This document shows positions 4,839 to 18,539 of a stretch of 20,715 nucleotides of DNA, in pieces (position 1 is the stretch's first letter; every line of letters starts with the position of its first letter). A model generated the notes under the pieces. That model saw nothing but the letters and a program-made list of their open reading frames with translations, ran no database searches and had not been told where the DNA came from. Position numbers and translations under genes: made by a program. This DNA comes from a virus: positions 1 through 20,715 of IMG/VR virus record IMGVR_UViG_3300001812_000008. One strand, written 5' to 3'.

Positions 4839-6095
4839 TCACCAGCCACTTGGTTTTTCTACCGGGCTTCTCTTGATGTTTATCATGTCGTCTTCCAGCC
4901 CATAGCGAACACTATCGATGCTGTGATTATCCTTATCAGGAAACTGGCTTTTTACGATTCCGCCATAACCAGTTTCCAGTGAATAGTTTATGAACTCCCT
5001 TGCCGCAAGTGGACACCGTTCCGGGTCAATTATGATCGCCTCCAGGTCTTGCAAAAATTTGATACCAAATTCTAAGCTGCCCGGACCTTTCTTTGCCCCC
5101 TTGATTTTCATGCCATAGCTTCTCAGTTCCGCTATGCTTTTTGGCTCCGCGCTGTCCGCAATAGTCCATACGTCATTGTATCTTTGGGTTTTTTCCCAAA
5201 GCTGCCGATTAAATAGATTGAGGCCGTGGGTCTCAGCAAACAGATATAACCGCCGGCGCATCCGGTCATAATACATCCGCTCAAAGACCAACGGATCTAC
5301 TGCATAACCAAAATCTAAGCCCTGGCGAATGTGGTCAAAGACAGTTATTTCCTCATCAGCAATTTTCCGTAGCTCCACGTTGGTGAATACTTCGAGACCA
5401 GTTCCGACTTCCTCCCCCAGGTATTCATGACGATACGCTGCTTCATTGACTCTTTTCAAATGTTCGGCATCAGCCAAGAACCGCTCGCCTAACCATTCCG
5501 GCGGTACGTCCAGATATGTTGAGTGATGAACTCTCCGGCCAGTCTTCGGCTCCTTCGCCCCTTGATTCACCCAGCTGCGTCCTGACCTTGGCGGGTTGTA
5601 GCTATAAAAAGAAATCCGCTTTTTATTCTCTCCCCGAAAAAGGGACTGGAGAATGTTGCGGATTTCATCTGCGCCAGTAAACTGGTCAAGCTCTTCAAAC
5701 CAAGCATACTTGATATAACCGCGCCCCAGATTAAAAGACCTTGTTTTTTTAGGATTATCCGCCGCCTTAAACACGATCTTCTGAGCGGTGGGACAGTAGA
5801 TGATTTGCATCGGGCTGACCTGGAATTTAAACAGGTGTGCTATTCCCATCTTGCTTGCTGTCCACTCGAACTGACCAAAAACAGTGTCACGCAATTCATT
5901 CTGATATCGCCGGAATATCACAGCGTTTGCTTCTATGTCCTTTATCATCCCCAGCAATATTTGTACGCTAACAAAGGTTGATTTCGTCGACCCGCGACCG
6001 CCTTTTAGCCATACCTCATCAAAAATATCTTGCTTAAGCTCGCCGTGTAGCTTATAAAAGCTGGGGGCAATAAGTGAGGTCAACTTGACGTTCAT
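4839..6095 (-). CDS. Terminase large subunit (ATPase and nuclease)
   Basis: A 418-residue packaging motor that cuts concatemeric DNA and drives it into the head. The ATPase half shows Walker A GGRGSTKS (32-39) and a Walker B region YAWFEELDQF (130-139) with E134/E135. SFYSYNPP (162-169) matches the coupling motif region. The nuclease half has the RNase H-fold acidic residues D261 (GLDFGYAVDP), D314 (ADSAEPKS) and D394 (DNHSIDSVRYG). The motifs fit the PBSX/SPP1-like Terminase_3 group, and the length is normal. It starts at ATG 2 bp after the small-subunit stop, with GGAGAAGG upstream. No frameshift is seen and all expected catalytic residues are present. Confidence 0.96.
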   Translation of the reverse strand: MNVKLTSLIAPSFYKLHGELKQDIFDEVWLKGGRGSTKSTFVSVQILLGMIKDIEANAVIFRRYQNELRDTVFGQFEWTASKMGIAHLFKFQVSPMQIIYCPTAQKIVFKAADNPKKTRSFNLGRGYIKYAWFEELDQFTGADEIRNILQSLFRGENKKRISFYSYNPPRSGRSWVNQGAKEPKTGRRVHHSTYLDVPPEWLGERFLADAEHLKRVNEAAYRHEYLGEEVGTGLEVFTNVELRKIADEEITVFDHIRQGLDFGYAVDPLVFERMYYDRMRRRLYLFAETHGLNLFNRQLWEKTQRYNDVWTIADSAEPKSIAELRSYGMKIKGAKKGPGSLEFGIKFLQDLEAIIIDPERCPLAAREFINYSLETGYGGIVKSQFPDKDNHSIDSVRYGLEDDMINIKRSPVEKPSGW

Positions 6096-9676: not shown

Positions 9677-9921
9677 CGCCGCGCATCTCCAATCCAGCCT
9701 TCGTAAACAAAGCCGTCGCAATCTTCACATAGATCGCGGTTCTCATTCATAAACATCCAACACACTTCACAAAAGTACAGGGTATATATGCCCCCGTCCC
9801 CTGCGCAGATTTCAGCGTGGACTTCGCTTCCCGCCGGGATTTTCTCACAGCAACCGAAGCAGCGGTGGTCTTTGCGGGTCTTGACTATCTTCTCGCGGAT
9901 TAAAACGGGAATAATCTTCAT
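9673..9921 (-). CDS. Small Cys-rich protein, probable zinc finger
   Basis: An 82-residue protein, not assigned to a family. Eight cysteines lie in pairs: C21/C24/C25, C39, C51/C54 and C65/C68, with CFGCCEKI and FCEVCW reminiscent of treble-clef or zinc-ribbon folds. It begins with an ATGA overlap with the stop of the SbcC-like gene, so it belongs to the recombination operon. It might mediate protein or nucleic-acid contacts. Confidence 0.75.
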   Translation of the reverse strand: MKIIPVLIREKIVKTRKDHRCFGCCEKIPAGSEVHAEICAGDGGIYTLYFCEVCWMFMNENRDLCEDCDGFVYEGWIGDARR

Positions 9922-12068
9922 GATATCACCTCCACCTTGCTGCCTTCCGCAGTCTTCCGCACAACGATCTGCTGCGGGAAGAACTCCTTCAACTCGTCAA
10001 TATGTGTCACCACTATCACGAGTGAGAAGTCTTCTGCGATGATATTGATCGCCTCGGTAAAGGCGGTACGGCCCGCTGCGTCTAAGCAACTTGCGCCTTC
10101 GTCAATCACCAGAACCTCAATCTTCGCCCCGGCCCGCTTGGCCAGAAACTTGCTGATCGCCAGCCGGATGCCTAGATTAACCTCAAACCGCTCCGCTCCG
10201 CTCCAGCCCTCGTATGGACGTTCCCCCAGCTCGTCTGAAACAACAATGTCCAGGGTCTCGCTGATGTTTCCGGTGGTCTTAGCTTCCTTCTGCGTCTCAA
10301 AGCGGATCTCCATCCTCCCGCCGGTTAAGCGGGATAGCAGGTCATTGGCCAATATCTCCACTTCCGGCAGGGCATTCTCGATAATCAGGGCCGGAATCCC
10401 CGCTCTGCCGAAGGCCTTCGTAAGCTGGGCGTACCAGTGTTCTTCCTGAGCAAAAACCTTGAGTTCGTTTTCCAATACAACTTTCTGCCCAGCCTTGGCG
10501 TCCAGGTCTTTAAGGCGGGAGCTTACGGTCCCCAGCTTGATGCCGGTATCCTGATCCAGTTCTTGGACTTCTTTCAGCTGCCTGCGGGCGCCGAAAAAGA
10601 TGGATTCGGTTTTACGGAGCTCCGCTGCAACTTTCTCTATGTCAGCCAGGCCGATGTTTATAGAAACAAGCTCTGCCCGCAATTCTTTTTGGCGCTCCTG
10701 CAACTCGTCCGCCTGCTGCTCGATGCCGGCCATATTCTCTTCAGCCTGATTCAACTCTGGCAGAACTGCAGTCCATTTCTCCAGCGCCGATACTCGCTCA
10801 CGCAACCGGCGGTGCTCAGCTTCATCGTATTTAACAGCGTCACGAGCAGTACAAGCCTTTTGCCAAGCGGACACGTGCGGATTTTTCTGCTCCCGTAACT
10901 CTTTTAGCCGGGAATCAAGGACTGGAATTTCGGCTGCGGCCTCTCTTGCGGATTTGAGCAGCTGACAAATTTCTTTTTCATTCCCGGAACAGGGAACTTT
11001 TTCAAGTAGCTCCGCTTGCCGTCGCTTCGATTCCAGGCTGCTTTTAATGCTGCAGATTTCACTTTCTTGTTCACGATCGAATTTGGCCACCTGCCGCTCT
11101 AGCGTTTCGCAGTCACGCGACAATTGCCGTTCCCTGGTGGCCTTATCATCGCACGCTGCGATTTGTTTTTTGTCTTGCTCCAACTCTTTGGCTTTTGTCC
11201 TGATTTCGTCTCCGCGGTCGATGATTTTTTGCAGCCGCTCCCGTTTTTGTTCTAAGCCAGAAAGCCGGCTATCATTGGAAGCAAGCTCGCTATTAATTTT
11301 AGTCTGACGACCGCGTAAATCTTCGCTGCGGGCAGCTTTGACACGTAAATCAGAGACAATCTTTTCCTGATTTTCCAGGTCAATTTCCAGCTGATTAATA
11401 CTCTCCCGCGACGCCTTTTGTTCGCCTTCCAAGCGCTGCTCCTGCTGCTTTAGTTCCCCGTAACGCGACAAATCGGCATCAATGTTATCTATGGCCGCTC
11501 TCTTGATTGCAGCTTGATCCCGGTATCCCCGGGCCTTGGCCTTCGCCGTCTCTTGTAGCTGGTCGTAGATGTCCAGCCCCAGGATCTGACCGAATATCTC
11601 CATCCGCTTGCCCGGTGTAGCCTTGGTCAGCCGGTCAGCCTCGTCCTGGAGTATGACGCAGGAACTGACGAAGGTTTCGTAATCCATCCGGAGTAAGTCG
11701 CGGATTTTGTCCTGCGTCTCTTTCATGGTGGCGCCTGACAATGAGATCCACCCAGAACAGCCCTGTTTGGCCAGCTCCAGGGTGCTCTTGCCCTTACCCC
11801 TGTTCGAGCGGGTCCGGATAACCCGGTAGACCTCGTCTGCCAGGGCGAACTGCAGCTCGCCTATTGCTTGCTCTTGGCCTTGGCGGATATAGCGATCGAT
11901 ATCCTTATAGCGGCCTTCGCCGTACAAAGAGAACGTGATTCCATCCACAAGGGACGACTTGCCGCTGCCATTGTGTCCTAACAGGGCCACCAATCTCAAA
12001 CCCTGAAAATCAATCTCCGTATTACCGTAAGACAAAAAATTGTTTAAGTTAAGCTTGGTTGGTTGCAT
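9918..12068 (-). CDS. sbcC: SbcC/Rad50-like SMC-type ATPase
   Basis: A 716-residue ATPase that partners the nuclease gene next to it to process DNA ends. Walker A GHNGSGKS is at 31-38. The Q-loop region VILQDEADR has Q141, with TPGKRMEIFGQILGLD following as in Rad50. Two long coiled coils (about 165-355 and 375-520) flank a hook. The signature region WSGAERFEVNLGIRLA lies near 620-635, Walker B VLVIDEGASCLD near 652-663 with D656/E657, and a switch His in VVTHIDEL. The hook is C360-x7-C368 instead of the usual CxxC. It is shorter than cellular SbcC (about 1000 residues), as is common in phages. Its ribosome site GGAGGTGA lies in the end of the SbcD-like gene. Confidence 0.92.
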   Translation of the reverse strand: MQPTKLNLNNFLSYGNTEIDFQGLRLVALLGHNGSGKSSLVDGITFSLYGEGRYKDIDRYIRQGQEQAIGELQFALADEVYRVIRTRSNRGKGKSTLELAKQGCSGWISLSGATMKETQDKIRDLLRMDYETFVSSCVILQDEADRLTKATPGKRMEIFGQILGLDIYDQLQETAKAKARGYRDQAAIKRAAIDNIDADLSRYGELKQQEQRLEGEQKASRESINQLEIDLENQEKIVSDLRVKAARSEDLRGRQTKINSELASNDSRLSGLEQKRERLQKIIDRGDEIRTKAKELEQDKKQIAACDDKATRERQLSRDCETLERQVAKFDREQESEICSIKSSLESKRRQAELLEKVPCSGNEKEICQLLKSAREAAAEIPVLDSRLKELREQKNPHVSAWQKACTARDAVKYDEAEHRRLRERVSALEKWTAVLPELNQAEENMAGIEQQADELQERQKELRAELVSINIGLADIEKVAAELRKTESIFFGARRQLKEVQELDQDTGIKLGTVSSRLKDLDAKAGQKVVLENELKVFAQEEHWYAQLTKAFGRAGIPALIIENALPEVEILANDLLSRLTGGRMEIRFETQKEAKTTGNISETLDIVVSDELGERPYEGWSGAERFEVNLGIRLAISKFLAKRAGAKIEVLVIDEGASCLDAAGRTAFTEAINIIAEDFSLVIVVTHIDELKEFFPQQIVVRKTAEGSKVEVIS

Positions 12069-12069
12069 A

Positions 12070-13323
12070 TCACAAGCTCACCTCCCCGGTAAGTATCTCC
12101 GCCCGCTTCACGAGCTCAGCCTGCTCCTCCTCGGGCACCTGGTTGACCTGGCACCATAAGCTCAGGGCATCCACCGGTCGGAGCTCCGACGTGGCTTCAG
12201 CAGCCCGCTGGGTGCGGTTGGAACGCCGGATTTTTGCCTCAATCCCCTGGACATAGAAAGCGCCTAGTTGGTAGAGCTCCCGCATGACCTGCGCCTGGCT
12301 TATTTGCCTGGCACCGGCCTCGGTCACCTCGTAGCGGACCCGGACAATGGCATCTGCTCCCGGGGAACGCACCATGTCTTCTCCGTTAGTTGTCAGAGAA
12401 TAGCTAACGTCCCTTAATACCTCAACCGCTCCGTCAGGGTCGTTATCACGCCAAGGCAAATCCAGCGTCCAGTACTTCCGTGATGGTGTTTCAATAAATC
12501 TGTTGCTAATGTTGTCATAGGGCAGATCGGGTTCTATTTCGTGTATCCAAAATCCAGGAGTGATTTGCTCCTCGTTGAAGCTCAGCCGTTCGGGAGAACC
12601 GCAGTAGAACGTCGGCACGGTCAGCCCCTGCACCTGCTGCGCTTTGTGAATATGCCCCAGGCATACCAGGTCGAACCCAGCTCCTTCGATAGCCGCCTTA
12701 GTCAGGACCGGCTCGTGTTGCATCAGCAGGTCCTCGAAGCCCTTATCAGCGCCAGCGCAGGTAATATGCGAAAGCAGAATCTTCGGATGATACTCGCATT
12801 GTGCGGCCAGCCCAAGAGTTAACTCGGTTACCCGGTCGGTTATCAGCTGATGTAGCTCGTGCGCGGGGATCTTGGAGTATTCTTCCCGAGAAGCGATTGT
12901 AGAACGGTTGATCCCGGGAAGGCAAACAACCGAAATGATCAGTCCATCCCAGTAAACCTCCTTAATCCCTGGGGACGTAAAGATATGGACCTCTAAGATG
13001 CGCATCTCCTTGATCAACTCATAAGCAGCGATAGCATCATGGCTAGGTGTGCCGCTGATGACCACTACAGGAACCCCGGCCTCGGAGAAACGGCGCAGCC
13101 ACCTGACAGCCGCGGCGATCTCCACCGATGCCCGGTCCAGAAAGACACGGGCATCTTTGAATAGATCCCCGGCTACCAGAACCAGATCGCAGTTCTCTTC
13201 GATGATCCGGTCGGCCATGAAATCAGCGACACGGCAGATATCATCAAACCGGGAAGAAGGGGATGGGCCGGCGTAGCCCATCCCAAAGTGGAGATCAGCG
13301 CAATGCGCAATTTTAATCGTCAT
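12070..13323 (-). CDS. sbcD: SbcD/Mre11-like metallophosphoesterase nuclease
   Basis: A 417-residue nuclease subunit of an SbcCD-type complex. Phosphoesterase motifs in order: D10 and H12 (HCADLHFG), GDLF with D53, SGTPSHD (90-96) where most Mre11 proteins have GNHD, a SHITCAG His near 200, and CLGHIHKA near 230. The first metal ligands are therefore present, with a variant third motif that I have also seen in other phage-type members. The C-terminal third is a capping and partner-binding region. The start at 13323 is preferred because it makes an ATGA overlap with the upstream stop, has AGGTGG seven bases before it, and directly precedes the conserved TIKIAHCAD; a longer reading from 13395 would add 24 unlikely residues. 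Confidence 0.92.
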   Translation of the reverse strand: MTIKIAHCADLHFGMGYAGPSPSSRFDDICRVADFMADRIIEENCDLVLVAGDLFKDARVFLDRASVEIAAAVRWLRRFSEAGVPVVVISGTPSHDAIAAYELIKEMRILEVHIFTSPGIKEVYWDGLIISVVCLPGINRSTIASREEYSKIPAHELHQLITDRVTELTLGLAAQCEYHPKILLSHITCAGADKGFEDLLMQHEPVLTKAAIEGAGFDLVCLGHIHKAQQVQGLTVPTFYCGSPERLSFNEEQITPGFWIHEIEPDLPYDNISNRFIETPSRKYWTLDLPWRDNDPDGAVEVLRDVSYSLTTNGEDMVRSPGADAIVRVRYEVTEAGARQISQAQVMRELYQLGAFYVQGIEAKIRRSNRTQRAAEATSELRPVDALSLWCQVNQVPEEEQAELVKRAEILTGEVSL

Positions 13324-14453
13324 CTTCCGCCACCTGCCTTCTGGCCGGCCGTTTTCTTCTCCTGCAAACCGGCTTCCTTTTGGCAAGACACGCAAAGCTT
13401 TTTACCGTACCGTTTTTGGCTGTAGTCGGCTATTTGCTGCGGGGTCCAGTCCTTTTCGATCGCAATAATCTGGTCGCAGCCTTGGCAGACAATAGCGTTT
13501 TTGAACATATCATGCTGCCCAGGGTCATCTGTTACGGCTTGCCCTTCCCAGGGAGGACCGACATCGTTCCCTCCGTCACCTTCGCCGGTCCAGGGCAGGT
13601 TATCAACAACATCAGCCGTAACATCCGCATCTATAACGGCGCCGCTCGCGTTGAACCGCTCCTCACGCTGGTCAACATCGATCGGCTGCCCAAGGAGCTG
13701 CTGCGGAGCCTGGAGTTGGTGGACGGCGGATTGACCGAACAGGTCGGACGTGGCCCGGATGCCTGCCTCGGCCATAGCTTTGCGAACCTCAGGATCGCTG
13801 TAGTCAGGCGCAAAGTCTACGGTCGGCACCGCGAAGGGCTTCTTCAGCTCTGCTGCCGAATACTGATGCTTGACTGACAGCAGCGCCCGCACCACCCGCA
13901 GCATGGCCCCGGTCTCGGCCCGCATCAGCTTGTTCTTTTTCCACTGGATCATGTTTTTGCGGGTTTTGGCCTCCGCCCACTCCTCGGGAGCAAGGCCATC
14001 CCGCTGTTCAGGTTTCAATTTTTTGGCTGTTTCCAGGTTAGTATCGTAAGTCTCAGCCTCCACCACTTCCAGATCGATCTCTTTGGTGGCCTTAAGCGGG
14101 ATCCACTCACCCGAGGGCTTGCGCATGGCCCCCACAGCCTGGTATAGGACATAATCTTTGCCGGCCGACAAAACTCTGGTTTCTGCCCAGTTCCAGACGA
14201 TACCGGCAGCGGTCGACAGACGCAAAACAGCCGTTTTGGAAAGGGACAATACATCCTCAAAATTATTGCCTACCTTTTTGCTGCCCACCTTAAAAACATC
14301 CCCTGCCTCGGGATCCGGGTTAATCTTTACCTCCTCCACCCGGATTCGGTGGAAGGGCGATATCTGCTGCATTGTGACAGTTGGGAAAAGGACGTTGCAG
14401 CGTCCTTCATAATCTTTAAGTTGAATAAGGGAAGTGCTTTTTTCTTGTATCAT
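13320..14453 (-). CDS. Candidate single-strand annealing / recombination protein with C-terminal zinc finger
   Basis: A 377-residue protein not firmly recognised. The N-terminal two thirds include KVGSKKVGNNFEDVLSLSK, KLMRAETGAMLRVVRALL and SAAELKKPFAVP. Their order (substrate-like beta region, then a helical TGAMLRVVRALL followed by SAAEL and an Asp-rich stretch) recalls RecT-type annealing proteins, which have KTVIRxLxK...PxSxEL in the same place. The last 60 residues hold C323-x2-C326 and C354-x2-C357, a zinc ribbon. It overlaps the SbcD-like gene as ATGA and starts at ATG 14453 behind GGAGG. In phages, annealing proteins are often paired with SbcCD-like or exonuclease genes. The role is inferred from weak similarity plus context. 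Confidence 0.65.
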   Translation of the reverse strand: MIQEKSTSLIQLKDYEGRCNVLFPTVTMQQISPFHRIRVEEVKINPDPEAGDVFKVGSKKVGNNFEDVLSLSKTAVLRLSTAAGIVWNWAETRVLSAGKDYVLYQAVGAMRKPSGEWIPLKATKEIDLEVVEAETYDTNLETAKKLKPEQRDGLAPEEWAEAKTRKNMIQWKKNKLMRAETGAMLRVVRALLSVKHQYSAAELKKPFAVPTVDFAPDYSDPEVRKAMAEAGIRATSDLFGQSAVHQLQAPQQLLGQPIDVDQREERFNASGAVIDADVTADVVDNLPWTGEGDGGNDVGPPWEGQAVTDDPGQHDMFKNAIVCQGCDQIIAIEKDWTPQQIADYSQKRYGKKLCVSCQKEAGLQEKKTAGQKAGGGR

Positions 14454-14649
14454 TTGACTTGTAATCCTCCTTCATAGCTTTGTAACACTGCTCGCTCTCC
14501 ATCCACTGCCCCGCCGCCATAAGGACGCACCCGGCCAAAACTACCGCCCCTGCGATCAGATACCCATCGCCGGGGGAATCCGCCCCCGTCGCACCGAGCA
14601 GCATAACCAAGAAGCCGGTGAGCATGATTTTATCAGCAAGTTTTCTCAT
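14416..14649 (-). CDS. Small membrane protein with two predicted helices
   Basis: A 77-residue protein, function unknown. Two hydrophobic segments, about residues 8-22 (IMLTGFLVMLLGA) and 30-48 (YLIAGAVVLAGCVLMAAG), are joined by a short Asp/Gly loop. A basic, hydrophilic tail follows. The start ATG at 14649 follows GAGGAG. It overlaps the next gene by 38 bp. A small early membrane protein could be an exclusion factor or an anchor; nothing in the sequence decides this. Confidence 0.65.
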   Translation of the reverse strand: MRKLADKIMLTGFLVMLLGATGADSPGDGYLIAGAVVLAGCVLMAAGQWMESEQCYKAMKEDYKSNDTRKKHFPYST

Positions 14650-14667
14650 AACTGTTCTCCTCGTTTT

Positions 14668-14766
14668 TTATCTTTGCCGCCCCGCCGCCTGCAGCCGGTA
14701 AGCCTGACCACACGACCGGCATATTTTCGTATGGTCTGTTTCTCTGGTCGCGCACGGGGCAGCAGT
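14668..14766 (-). pseudogene. Possible remnant of a zinc-ribbon ORF
   Basis: A 33-codon open stretch without a start codon encodes HTKICRSCGQAYRLQAAG, a plausible zinc-knuckle fragment. In another leftward frame just upstream there is a NCCPVRDQ stretch. Joining the two by one frameshift would give a C-C...C-x2-C protein. This may be a decayed gene between the 78-residue Cys protein and the membrane protein, or chance. Confidence 0.2.
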
Positions 14767-14794
14767 TTACATCTGTCCGCGATTATGCTATAGT
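14766..14794 (+). promoter_or_regulatory. Strong rightward sigma-A promoter inside the early operon
   Basis: TTTACA at 14766-14771, 17 bp spacer, TATAGT at 14789-14794 preceded by TGC (extended -10). It points against the surrounding genes. The predicted start is near 14801, and a terminator begins nine bases later. Confidence 0.6.
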
Positions 14795-15019
14795 AGGAGT
14801 GTGATGTTCACCGCTTCGGCGGTTTTCTTTTTTTAGCTCCGCCCGGATCTTCTTTGTCCACCCCAGATACATCGGCTCGCACCGCCGGCAGATCGCGCCT
14901 GCCGCCATCCGCCCGCACATCTCGCAGCGCTGCAGGTAGACCACATTCGGCGTCTGCAGGCGCCGCAGCCAGGCTTGGAATTCGCGGTTCTTGCCGATGT
15001 AACTCGTTAAGATTTTCAT
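14783..15019 (-). CDS. Small zinc-ribbon protein (78 residues)
   Basis: Unassigned. Two CxxC pairs (C32/C35 and C44/C47 in CEMCGRM and CRRCEPM) form a probable zinc ribbon. They follow a basic N-terminus starting MKILTSYIGKNREFQAWLRR and precede a Lys/Arg-rich helix. The final 18 codons are overlaid by the opposite-strand promoter and terminator, so the tail KKENRRSGEHH may be dictated by those signals. The start ATG at 15019 follows AAAGGAGG. Neighbours on both sides are further small early genes. Confidence 0.7.
   Translation of the reverse strand: MKILTSYIGKNREFQAWLRRLQTPNVVYLQRCEMCGRMAAGAICRRCEPMYLGWTKKIRAELKKENRRSGEHHTPTIA
14801..14834 (+). ncRNA. Predicted ~34-nt antisense transcript ending in a terminator
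   Basis: Transcript predicted between a strong rightward promoter and an intrinsic terminator: ACCGC-TTCG-GCGGT (14810-14823) followed by TTT-C-TTTTTTT to 14834. The tetraloop is the very stable UUCG type. The RNA would be almost only a terminator hairpin with a leader of about nine bases, and it is antisense to the last codons of the 78-residue Cys protein. A ten-codon ORF from the ATG at 14804 exists, but its ribosome site (AGGAG at 14795) lies upstream of the predicted RNA start. No expression data; both signals are read from sequence. Confidence 0.45.
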
Positions 15020-15268: not shown

Positions 15269-15727
15269 CTACCCCGCCAAGGGCATAATTTCTTTGATGC
15301 TGATACCCTGCCGCAAGGCGAAGAACTTTAACTCGCCGATCCGCTTCTCCAGCTCCACCGCTTCTTTCAGGATACCTTCAAACTCGTCTACTTCGTTCCG
15401 CTTAAGCTCCCCATCCGCGGCAATCCTGATCAGTTTGTCCCGCAGCCGCTCCACATCCGCAAATTCCTTCAGCACTCTTAGCACCGTCACCGCGAAGGCC
15501 GGTCTGTCCAGCGAATGTGCAAGCACCTGCCCGATTGGGCACACTTTCGCGCAGTAATCCGCAGGCAGCGCAGGCTCACGGTACACCTCCGCCATGCGCA
15601 TCACCACGTCCGGCGGCGCGATGGTCTTGTGACACTCATAGTCAGCAAGCGTCCTGGTGCCGATATAAAGCCGGTGGGCGGCTTCCTCTCTGCTTAGGCC
15701 GACTACGTTTCGTGCTTCTTTCAGCAT
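15269..15727 (-). CDS. Helix-turn-helix phage early regulator (XRE-type)
   Basis: A 152-residue protein. The N-terminal XRE-type helix-turn-helix spans about residues 1-50: ARNVVGLSREEAAHRLYIGTR followed by LADYECHK. Around residues 58-66 is YCAKVCPIGQ, a conserved Cys-containing segment seen in related Firmicute prophage proteins. The rest is a Leu/Glu-rich helix that probably dimerises. It is placed downstream of the left switch in the early operon, so it may be a secondary regulator of early or late genes. Start ATG at 15727 with AAAGGAG upstream. Confidence 0.8.
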   Translation of the reverse strand: MLKEARNVVGLSREEAAHRLYIGTRTLADYECHKTIAPPDVVMRMAEVYREPALPADYCAKVCPIGQVLAHSLDRPAFAVTVLRVLKEFADVERLRDKLIRIAADGELKRNEVDEFEGILKEAVELEKRIGELKFFALRQGISIKEIMPLAG

Positions 15728-16159: not shown

Positions 16160-16179
16160 TTAGACACCCCCCTTCTTTA

Positions 16180-16207
16180 ATTATAACTATGGTTATATGT
16201 TTGTCAA
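16180..16207 (-). promoter_or_regulatory. Leftward early promoter (left switch)
   Basis: Leftward TTGACA (16207-16202), 16 bp, TATAAT (16185-16180). Both hexamers are consensus. The operator at 16183-16196 overlaps the -10 and spacer, so bound repressor would block RNA polymerase. It drives the Cro-like gene and, downstream, the replication operon. Confidence 0.8.
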
Positions 16208-16262
16208 TACTATAATTATAATTTTATCAGGCAAGCGAATGCTTTATAATAACTTTAGTTAT
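16182..16262. promoter_or_regulatory. Operator region of the left switch (three sites)
   Basis: Sites: ATAACTATGGTTAT (16183-16196), ATAACTTTAGTTAT (16249-16262) and a degenerate ATAATTATAATTTT (16212-16225, 11 of 14 matches to the consensus). The first covers the leftward -10; the last covers the candidate rightward -10 (TATAAT, 16245-16250), whose -35 is weak. Dyad symmetry and placement match a lambda-like OR region. Binding by either XRE protein is inferred. Confidence 0.65.
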
Positions 16263-17979: not shown

Positions 17980-18078
17980 TTCACCCCTTCTGAACTCATT
18001 ATAATTCAGCAACTCTGAACTTGTCAAGAGGGAATTTCATAGTTTCTGAACCTGTCTTGCAAATTCATATAACCTGAA
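17980..18078. promoter_or_regulatory. Four-operator array of the right switch
   Basis: Four sites TTCA-N6-CTGAAC begin at 17980, 18005, 18036 and 18064, all in the same orientation, centre spacing 25, 31 and 28 bp. The first lies in the leader of the leftward gene, the second between the leftward -35 and -10, the third between the two promoters, the fourth exactly in the spacer of the rightward promoter. This arrangement would let one repressor act on both promoters. The bound protein is inferred. Confidence 0.8.
17998..18027 (-). promoter_or_regulatory. Leftward promoter of the right switch
   Basis: TTGACA (18027-18022), 18 bp, TATAAT (18003-17998), both consensus. Operator 2 fills the spacer. 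It drives the Cro-like and excision genes. Confidence 0.78.
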
Positions 18079-18085
18079 CTATACT
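18057..18085 (+). promoter_or_regulatory. Rightward promoter of the right switch
   Basis: TTGCAA at 18057-18062, 17 bp, TATACT at 18080-18085. Operator 4 (18064-18078) lies in the spacer, so the repressor probably limits its own synthesis. It drives the XRE gene at 18105. Confidence 0.7.
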
Positions 18086-18104
18086 TACCGAAAGGGGGAT
18101 GTTA

Positions 18105-18539
18105 ATGAGTTTTGGAGAACGCTTGAAAAAAATTAGGACGGAGCGAGGGCTTCGCCAAGAAGATATTGGGAAGATAGTCCATGTGGGAAAATCAACTGTT
18201 TCTCAATGGGAGAATAATATCCACACACCCGATTTGGAAACCGTCGCTAAAATTGCTCGTGCTCTTAATGTTTCTGTGGAACAGTTTATTGACGATGCCC
18301 CCCCACAACTCCTTGGCCGCACCGACTATCGCACCACCTCCACCCCCGTTGCCCACAAAATTATTACTCCCCCGCATATTGACGATGAACTCTGGACGGA
18401 GGAGGAGTTAATGGAAATTGAGAGATTTAAGAATTTTATCCTGTCAAAACGAAAAGAAAGTGTTCATCCAATTCACCACATGGCATTTACAACACAGAAA
18501 ACCCCACCCGCCACAAGGCCAACAAAAAAACCCCGGTAG
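18105..18539 (+). CDS. XRE-family repressor, right switch (CI-like)
   Basis: A 144-residue protein. Residues 1-65 form the helix-turn-helix: GERLKKIRTERGLRQEDIGK, HVGKSTVSQWENNIHTPD, LETVAKIARALNVSVEQF. Residues 66-144 are Pro/Thr-rich with a central acidic helix (WTEEELMEIERFKNFILS) and a basic tail. No S24 peptidase or other enzyme domain is visible, so RecA-stimulated self-cleavage is unlikely. Start ATG at 18105 fits the AAAGGGGG site (six bases); the ATG two codons earlier is too close. Rightward, opposite to the lytic genes. Inferred role: lysogenic repressor of the excision arm. Confidence 0.83.
   Translation: MSFGERLKKIRTERGLRQEDIGKIVHVGKSTVSQWENNIHTPDLETVAKIARALNVSVEQFIDDAPPQLLGRTDYRTTSTPVAHKIITPPHIDDELWTEEELMEIERFKNFILSKRKESVHPIHHMAFTTQKTPPATRPTKKPR

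Follow-up and report, generated by a model that had tools for sequence, protein, structure and literature searches.

A predicted 34-nucleotide antisense RNA unit in a phage early operon and its recurrence in temperate phages of Bacillota

INTRODUCTION

What can be gained from a promoter that runs into a terminator almost as soon as transcription has begun? This question is raised by a short stretch (positions 14766 to 14834) of the IMG/VR virus record IMGVR_UViG_3300001812_000008, of which positions 1 to 20,715 were analyzed and are called the window here. The stretch carries a promoter-terminator unit on the plus strand, and the neighbouring genes are on the minus strand, so that the unit opposes their operon. 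On balance, we read it as a minimal but complete gene that would specify a cis-antisense RNA of about 34 nucleotides (nt). It would be one example of an element that recurs in Bacillota temperate phages and would act in the manner of the OOP RNA of phage lambda. We are fairly confident of a wider proposal, namely, that temperate phages across Bacillota (Clostridia, Listeria, Lactococcus, and Streptococcus) share an undescribed class of 34- to 70-nt antisense RNAs at the border between immunity and recombination-replication genes. This class would be a Gram-positive counterpart of OOP in which the sequence is free and promoter, start, and terminator are kept.

RESULTS

Anatomy of the unit in the window

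The promoter, the hairpin nine bases after the start, the T-run, and the orientation against the operon, all described in the original prediction, were confirmed at the same coordinates (Table 1). The promoter scan gave 10 of 12 matches plus the TG before the −10 box, and the terminator was also called. Read directly, the spacer is 17 bases long and ends in TGC. Six bases separate TATAGT from the predicted +1, G14801, which is preceded by T14800, giving a pyrimidine-purine (YR) start. Nine bases after this start comes the stem ACCGC/GCGGT with a TTCG loop (14810-14823), followed by a T-run (14823-14834) interrupted by one C. The RNA 14801-14834 folded at −7.7 kcal/mol (z −2.28). The hairpin is nevertheless modest, because z was only −0.67 when six 5′ bases were added. 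Among the 27 units whose length was measured, that of the window is the shortest. At the Rfam gathering score, no match was obtained in the window, and 19 related loci gave one tRNA only.

All of the predicted RNA falls within the 3′ portion of a 78-amino-acid (aa) open reading frame (ORF) of the operon, where it lies opposite about 11 codons. The promoter straddles the stop codon of this ORF and the adjoining gap.

For a strict pair of signals (promoter of at least 10/12, then at most 25 nt to a stem with at least 4 G-C pairs, and at least 6 T of 8), 0.005 cases were expected per dinucleotide-shuffled window (1 in 200 shuffles). A loose pair (promoter of at least 9/12, 3 G-C pairs, 5 T, 60 nt) gave 0.69 per shuffled window in 200 shuffles. 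The strict figure is partly post hoc, because its limits were set after the unit was seen, and independent evidence was therefore sought in relatives. The original view that two good signals with exact spacing are unlikely by chance was right, and the relatives support it far better than the strict figure does.

Recurrence at loci chosen without regard to the unit

Relatives were gathered with the 377-aa family of the operon (13 viral loci), with the family of its helix-turn-helix (HTH) regulator (12 loci, 19 with overlap), and with the PHROG family of that regulator, phrog_6499, in 398 Bacillota genomes (30 loci). The count set comprised 52 phrog_6499 loci including the window. Seven redundant loci (L030, L036, L037, L040, L042, L043, and L051) were removed and 45 were kept. 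L017 is a near copy of L011. Each locus was scanned from 150 bases before to 1,200 bases after the end of the HTH match.

A unit was found on the antisense strand in 24 of the 45 loci, versus 2 on the sense strand (L055 and L072). In 100 shuffles of the loci, the means were 0.11 for antisense and 0.04 for sense units, with a maximum of 1. Bacterial transcripts usually start at a pyrimidine-purine step. The scan took no account of these bases, and such a step stands at base 7 after the −10 box in 23 of the 24 antisense units, as against 0 to 11 of 24 at the eight neighbouring offsets. This is the best evidence that the predicted promoters work.

The G of the extended −10 TG is present in 40 of 41 units, a count to be read with the caveat that the selection favoured TATA-like hexamers and gave a bonus for TG. 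Most of the 41 also share a leader bias, with purines in the first two positions, +1 and +2, and T from +7 to +12. Stem and leader sequences vary between phages. All five stem pairs tested for covariation (5/5) had changes on both sides, which is not taken as proof because the scan selected perfect stems.

Search with a model of the unit

A model, R1, was built from an alignment of 17 units. Across 56 loci it gave 38 matches at E ≤ 0.01, 21 of them outside the training set, and all 38 oppose the operon. The window scored 43.1 bits, being itself one of the 17 training rows. A match that the scan had missed was obtained in the closest relative (L002/L005); it lies antisense to the operon where an HTH gene ends (L005 4174-4253). 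In the 398 Bacillota genomes, 64 had a match at E ≤ 0.01. We inspected 16 matches at new positions. Of these, 12 cover the 3′ portion of an ORF, L092 stands before RecE/RecT, and three (L085, L097, and L103) look false.

A YR step was present at +1 in 41 of 42 units, four of them from deposited phage records, and in 47 of 48 in another set. Both counts are partly model dependent; the clean ones are 23/24 and that from the named phages identified by scanning. By crude ORF calls, 37 of the 42 units lie over or beside the end of a sense ORF. Conservation in related phages had been named as a check, and the unit does recur there with its spacing conserved, in the blind survey, among the R1 matches, and in named phages. 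Recurrence on the antisense strand, conserved spacing, the extended −10 box, and the YR start together support the predicted ~34-nt antisense RNA of the early operon.

Named and deposited phages

Eleven named or deposited phage records were scanned, and 7 of them hold a unit with a YR start that opposes the operon at the entry to recombination/replication genes (Table 1). The RNAs predicted for TP901-1 and r1t would be about 45 to 80 nt long and would start 7 bases after the −10 box, near 5098 and near 4860, respectively, on the minus strand. Shuffled records gave 0 to 0.15 matches each. In GBSV1, a weaker unit precedes an HTH gene. Acetoanaerobium phage ANDSL2_ph1 had none by scan and an R1 match (E 3e-5) over the regulator 3′ end, before the replication initiation gene. 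TP901-1, phiC2, A500, and phi 11 had further scan matches elsewhere or on the other strand.

A second, related-looking antisense promoter unit was observed immediately before the integrase gene of MM1 (L119 1230-1357, plus strand), TP901-1 (L114 1487-1611, plus), and r1t (L117 1221-1342, plus), and the three are alike in sequence. There, R1 gave a match in MM1 (E 8.9e-5) and weak matches in TP901-1 (E 0.06) and r1t (E 0.24), which suggests that these phages carry such units at more than one of their borders. In A118 (L115 6862-6942, minus), a weak R1 match (E 0.096) lies before gp40. This may be near the published Anti2325-7 region.

Genes beyond the unit in relatives

Of the 50 downstream main genes extracted, 40 were compared with PHROGs, and 23 of these 40 belong to DNA, RNA and nucleotide metabolism (SbcCD, RecE, Sak4-like, Erf-like, O-like initiators, DnaB, and others). 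At the 3′ ends of early genes, Lys-Glu-Lys-Ala-like C-terminal tails were seen to be common to unrelated early proteins (L031, L038, L050, L056, L010, L102, and others). They arise because antisense terminator tails such as TTTTTCTTTTT are read in sense, and are thus a case of non-coding constraint imitating protein similarity.

Gene neighbourhood in the window

On the minus strand, the operon runs from a Cro-like HTH gene through a 60-aa ORF, the 152-aa HTH regulator, a 67-aa ORF, the 78-aa ORF, a 133-nt gap, a 77-aa ORF, and the 377-aa gene to SbcD and SbcC (Table 1). The product of the 78-aa ORF looks polar and Cys-rich by eye; a type I toxin-antitoxin pair would call for a small hydrophobic toxin on the sense strand. 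It had no Pfam family above that family's cut-off and no PHROG. A search of viral contigs returned no homologue, and phages gave only matches at E 3-10. The ORF was found in 1 of 8 genomes of the family and 1 of 398 of the phylum, both being the identical copy, and a search of the class (15 genomes) added a second, weak match (E 0.0075). The stretch identical to the window is contig JAGXSS010000028.1 of a Peptococcaceae metagenome genome. A DNA match in L020 was rejected as chance, since it falls inside the coding sequence of a longer gene. By eye, the N-terminal part of the 78-aa ORF resembles small ORFs of L006 and L022, which bear a unit at the same place.

The gap (14649-14782) that separates the 78-aa ORF from the 77-aa ORF holds a possible 29-aa frame on the minus strand with a start near 14721. 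Elsewhere in the window, a cI/cro-like regulatory region lies at 16160-16260. A second divergent regulatory region, at 17980-18107, has a full-consensus promoter (TTGACA-18-TATAAT, minus strand) and several CTGAAC repeats.

Table 1. Elements of the unit, genes around it in the window, and units in named phages
Feature	Position	Strand	Evidence or remark
−35 box TTTACA	14766-14771	+	Sequence reading; aligned with TTGnnn of relatives
Extended −10, TGC-TATAGT	14786-14794 (TATAGT 14789-14794)	+	Sequence reading and promoter scan
Predicted 34-nt antisense RNA, +1 G14801 to T-run end	14801-14834	+	YR start 7 bases after −10; fold
Intrinsic terminator ACCGC-TTCG-GCGGT then TTTTCTTTTTTT	14810-14834	+	Sequence reading, terminator scan, fold
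78-aa ORF, Cys-rich	14783-15019	−	Good Shine-Dalgarno sequence
133-nt operon gap	14650-14782	−	Holds −35 box and part of spacer
152-aa HTH regulator	15269-15727	−	phrog_6499 (E 4.6e-32); bait for collecting relatives
77-aa ORF, first gene downstream on operon strand	14416-14649	−	Relative in L002, 38.7% identity
377-aa protein, function unknown, begins downstream module	13320-14453	−	phrog_13782 (E 6e-56)
SbcD-like and SbcC-like genes, recombination module	9918-13395	−	phrog_100 E 2.5e-29; phrog_77 E 9.4e-88
Unit in Flavonifractor phage Cormatin	Before replication initiation gene		Scan; R1 E 0.03
Unit in Clostridioides phage phiC2	Before Gp157-like and Erf		Scan
Unit in Lactococcus phage TP901-1	Before ORF10 and Sak-like gene		Scan; R1 E 1.1e-4
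Unit in Lactococcus phage r1t	Before ORF9 and RecT		Scan
Unit in Listeria phage A118	Before RecE		Scan
Unit in Listeria phage A500	Before gp42, Gam, Erf		Scan
Unit in Streptococcus phage MM1	Before ORF6, upstream of Erf		Scan; R1 E 5e-5

DISCUSSION

Proposed action and points against it

The promoter, start site, terminator, orientation, and position of the unit are strongly supported by the comparison with relatives, and we infer production of the RNA, its pairing, cleavage of the duplex, regulation, and a benefit to the phage. Among the functions considered, the best fit is action of the RNA on the opposing mRNA. Following the model of lambda OOP, a sigma-A type extended −10 promoter at the entry of the recombination/replication module would fire backwards, and its transcript would stop 34 to 70 nt on, either within the 3′ end of the early gene before the module or just behind that end. 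Pairing of the RNA with the early polycistronic mRNA would be perfect and would span the end of the upstream, regulatory part of that mRNA. The duplex might then be cut by RNase III or block passage, by which the mRNA would be destabilized or severed at the junction. Stray early transcription could be held low in the lysogen, and regulators and replication genes could be expressed unequally in the lytic phase.

Several observations weigh against this reading. The 5-bp stem in the window is weak, and the terminator hairpin, 9 nt after +1, stands at the lower limit of distance. The only sequence match of this unit is the identical copy, which leaves it without homologous sequence for comparison. 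In the survey, 21 of 45 loci had no unit at the scan cut-off. Among named phages, FP_Brigit had no fitting scan match, nor had Staphylococcus phi 11, where a weak R1 match (E 0.004) was all that was obtained. A fixed distance between unit and start codon proved to be a mere tendency: a start codon with a Shine-Dalgarno sequence lay 5 to 25 bases beyond the −35 box in 19 of 48 units versus 96 of 960 random places. Finally, the gene beneath the unit varies by phage (phrog_6499 regulator, small orphan ORFs, or none), so that no one gene is a conserved target. In view of this variation, we favour the mRNA junction, rather than one protein, as the target.

Other explanations

Antisense transcription itself might be what matters, with polymerase from a strong backward promoter colliding with or stalling that of the early operon and the terminator merely sparing the regulators. 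The promoter is indeed more strictly conserved than the transcribed sequence, the terminator follows it almost at once, and in the window only the antisense of early genes lies ahead, up to a plus-strand gene at 16261. Such interference does not need the frequent overlap with the 3′ end of a sense ORF, however, and we regard it as unlikely, though deserving of some weight. The biased leader, single stranded at the 5′ end and purine then U rich, could instead direct the RNA in trans to another phage mRNA or a host mRNA. The original prediction had listed action on another mRNA among its options. Within the phage this was not borne out, since the longest complement elsewhere in the window is only 12 nt (plus strand, at 1698), and the leader and stem sequences differ between phages. 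Action in trans is accordingly a doubtful explanation.

The position before replication and recombination genes, together with the former view of OOP as a primer, might recommend a replication or recombination signal, with the RNA serving as a primer for DNA synthesis or the hairpin as a DNA site for a protein. A DNA site would need neither a T-run terminator nor a YR start, and this explanation is very improbable; priming of replication and titration of a protein, both raised originally, found no support. The unit might also be a coding by-product, the codons of KKENRRSG read on the other strand as a terminator beside a chance promoter, as the yield of loose pairs in shuffled windows could suggest. 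The strand bias (24 versus 2), the rarity of antisense units in shuffled loci, the YR step found blind, and the recurrence in unrelated reading frames speak against this. For the family, chance is refuted by the phrog_6499 survey, and for the window we give it hardly any credence.

Comparison with known phage antisense RNAs

As in lambda, the window and its relatives have a backward promoter between early regulators and the replication/recombination module, and the RNA would cover the 3′ end of the preceding gene with its intrinsic terminator inside that gene (the 78-aa ORF in the window, and likewise in most of 42 units). OOP is 77 nt long, whereas the RNAs predicted here are mostly 34 to 60 nt and their promoters have an extended −10 box. 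The overlapped gene is not cII or a homologue but a phrog_6499 regulator or a small orphan gene. With GAAC-N3-5-GTTC taken as the LexA-like site, none was found in a search confined to the 42 units themselves. Because cII and this site are missing, the unit is classed as working like OOP and not as OOP itself. In lambda, pO lies between cII and the replication genes and directs a backward transcript that ends at tO inside cII, with 52 bases of oop overlapping the cII 3′ end; CII activity is abolished when oop is expressed, and cutting by RNase III outside cII has been suggested (PMC5869508).

The nearest published relatives are the integrase-linked antisense small RNAs of Streptococcus pyogenes prophages (SP119_SR034 and others), found by strand-specific RNA sequencing and transcription start site mapping at one fixed place, upstream of integrase, in four prophages (PMC6431027). 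R1 also marks that position in MM1, with weaker matches for TP901-1 and r1t, a comparison by place only. In contrast to that family, the unit described here stands at another locus, and integrase-upstream units have a longer promoter-to-T-run distance and a different hairpin layout. The same paper proposes for streptococci that an antisense RNA uncouples recU from the next gene (PMC6431027), an idea similar to the junction cutting proposed here.

From Listeria A118 prophages, published reports describe Anti2325-7 (264 and 995 nt) and anti2330 at lmo2330-lmo2331 (PMC4374534, PMC3911899). Like the present unit, these are antisense RNAs of a Bacillota prophage, but neither is the short unit before RecE. 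The sar RNA of P22, likewise a small antisense RNA of a phage, acts on the antirepressor ant and in this way tunes an early regulator (PMC12197685); the unit here differs from it in place and host group. No description of the unit was found among open-access papers, most subscription literature, including any old transcript maps of TP901-1 or r1t, being outside reach, and the class is apparently undescribed. In a clostridial study of transcription start sites, antisense transcripts below a 200-bp threshold would, by its own account, escape detection (PMC5171806).

Significance

Through comparison, a single 69-base oddity became a recurrent element. If the proposal is true, it would account for the look-alike C-terminal tails of unrelated early proteins and would point to a class of RNA that common library size cut-offs discard. 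The element sits in the much-used laboratory phages TP901-1 and r1t, and would supply their lysis-lysogeny circuits with a component missing so far. OOP-like control would then no longer be an oddity of lambdoid phages; temperate phages of a second large bacterial phylum would have it as a general design.
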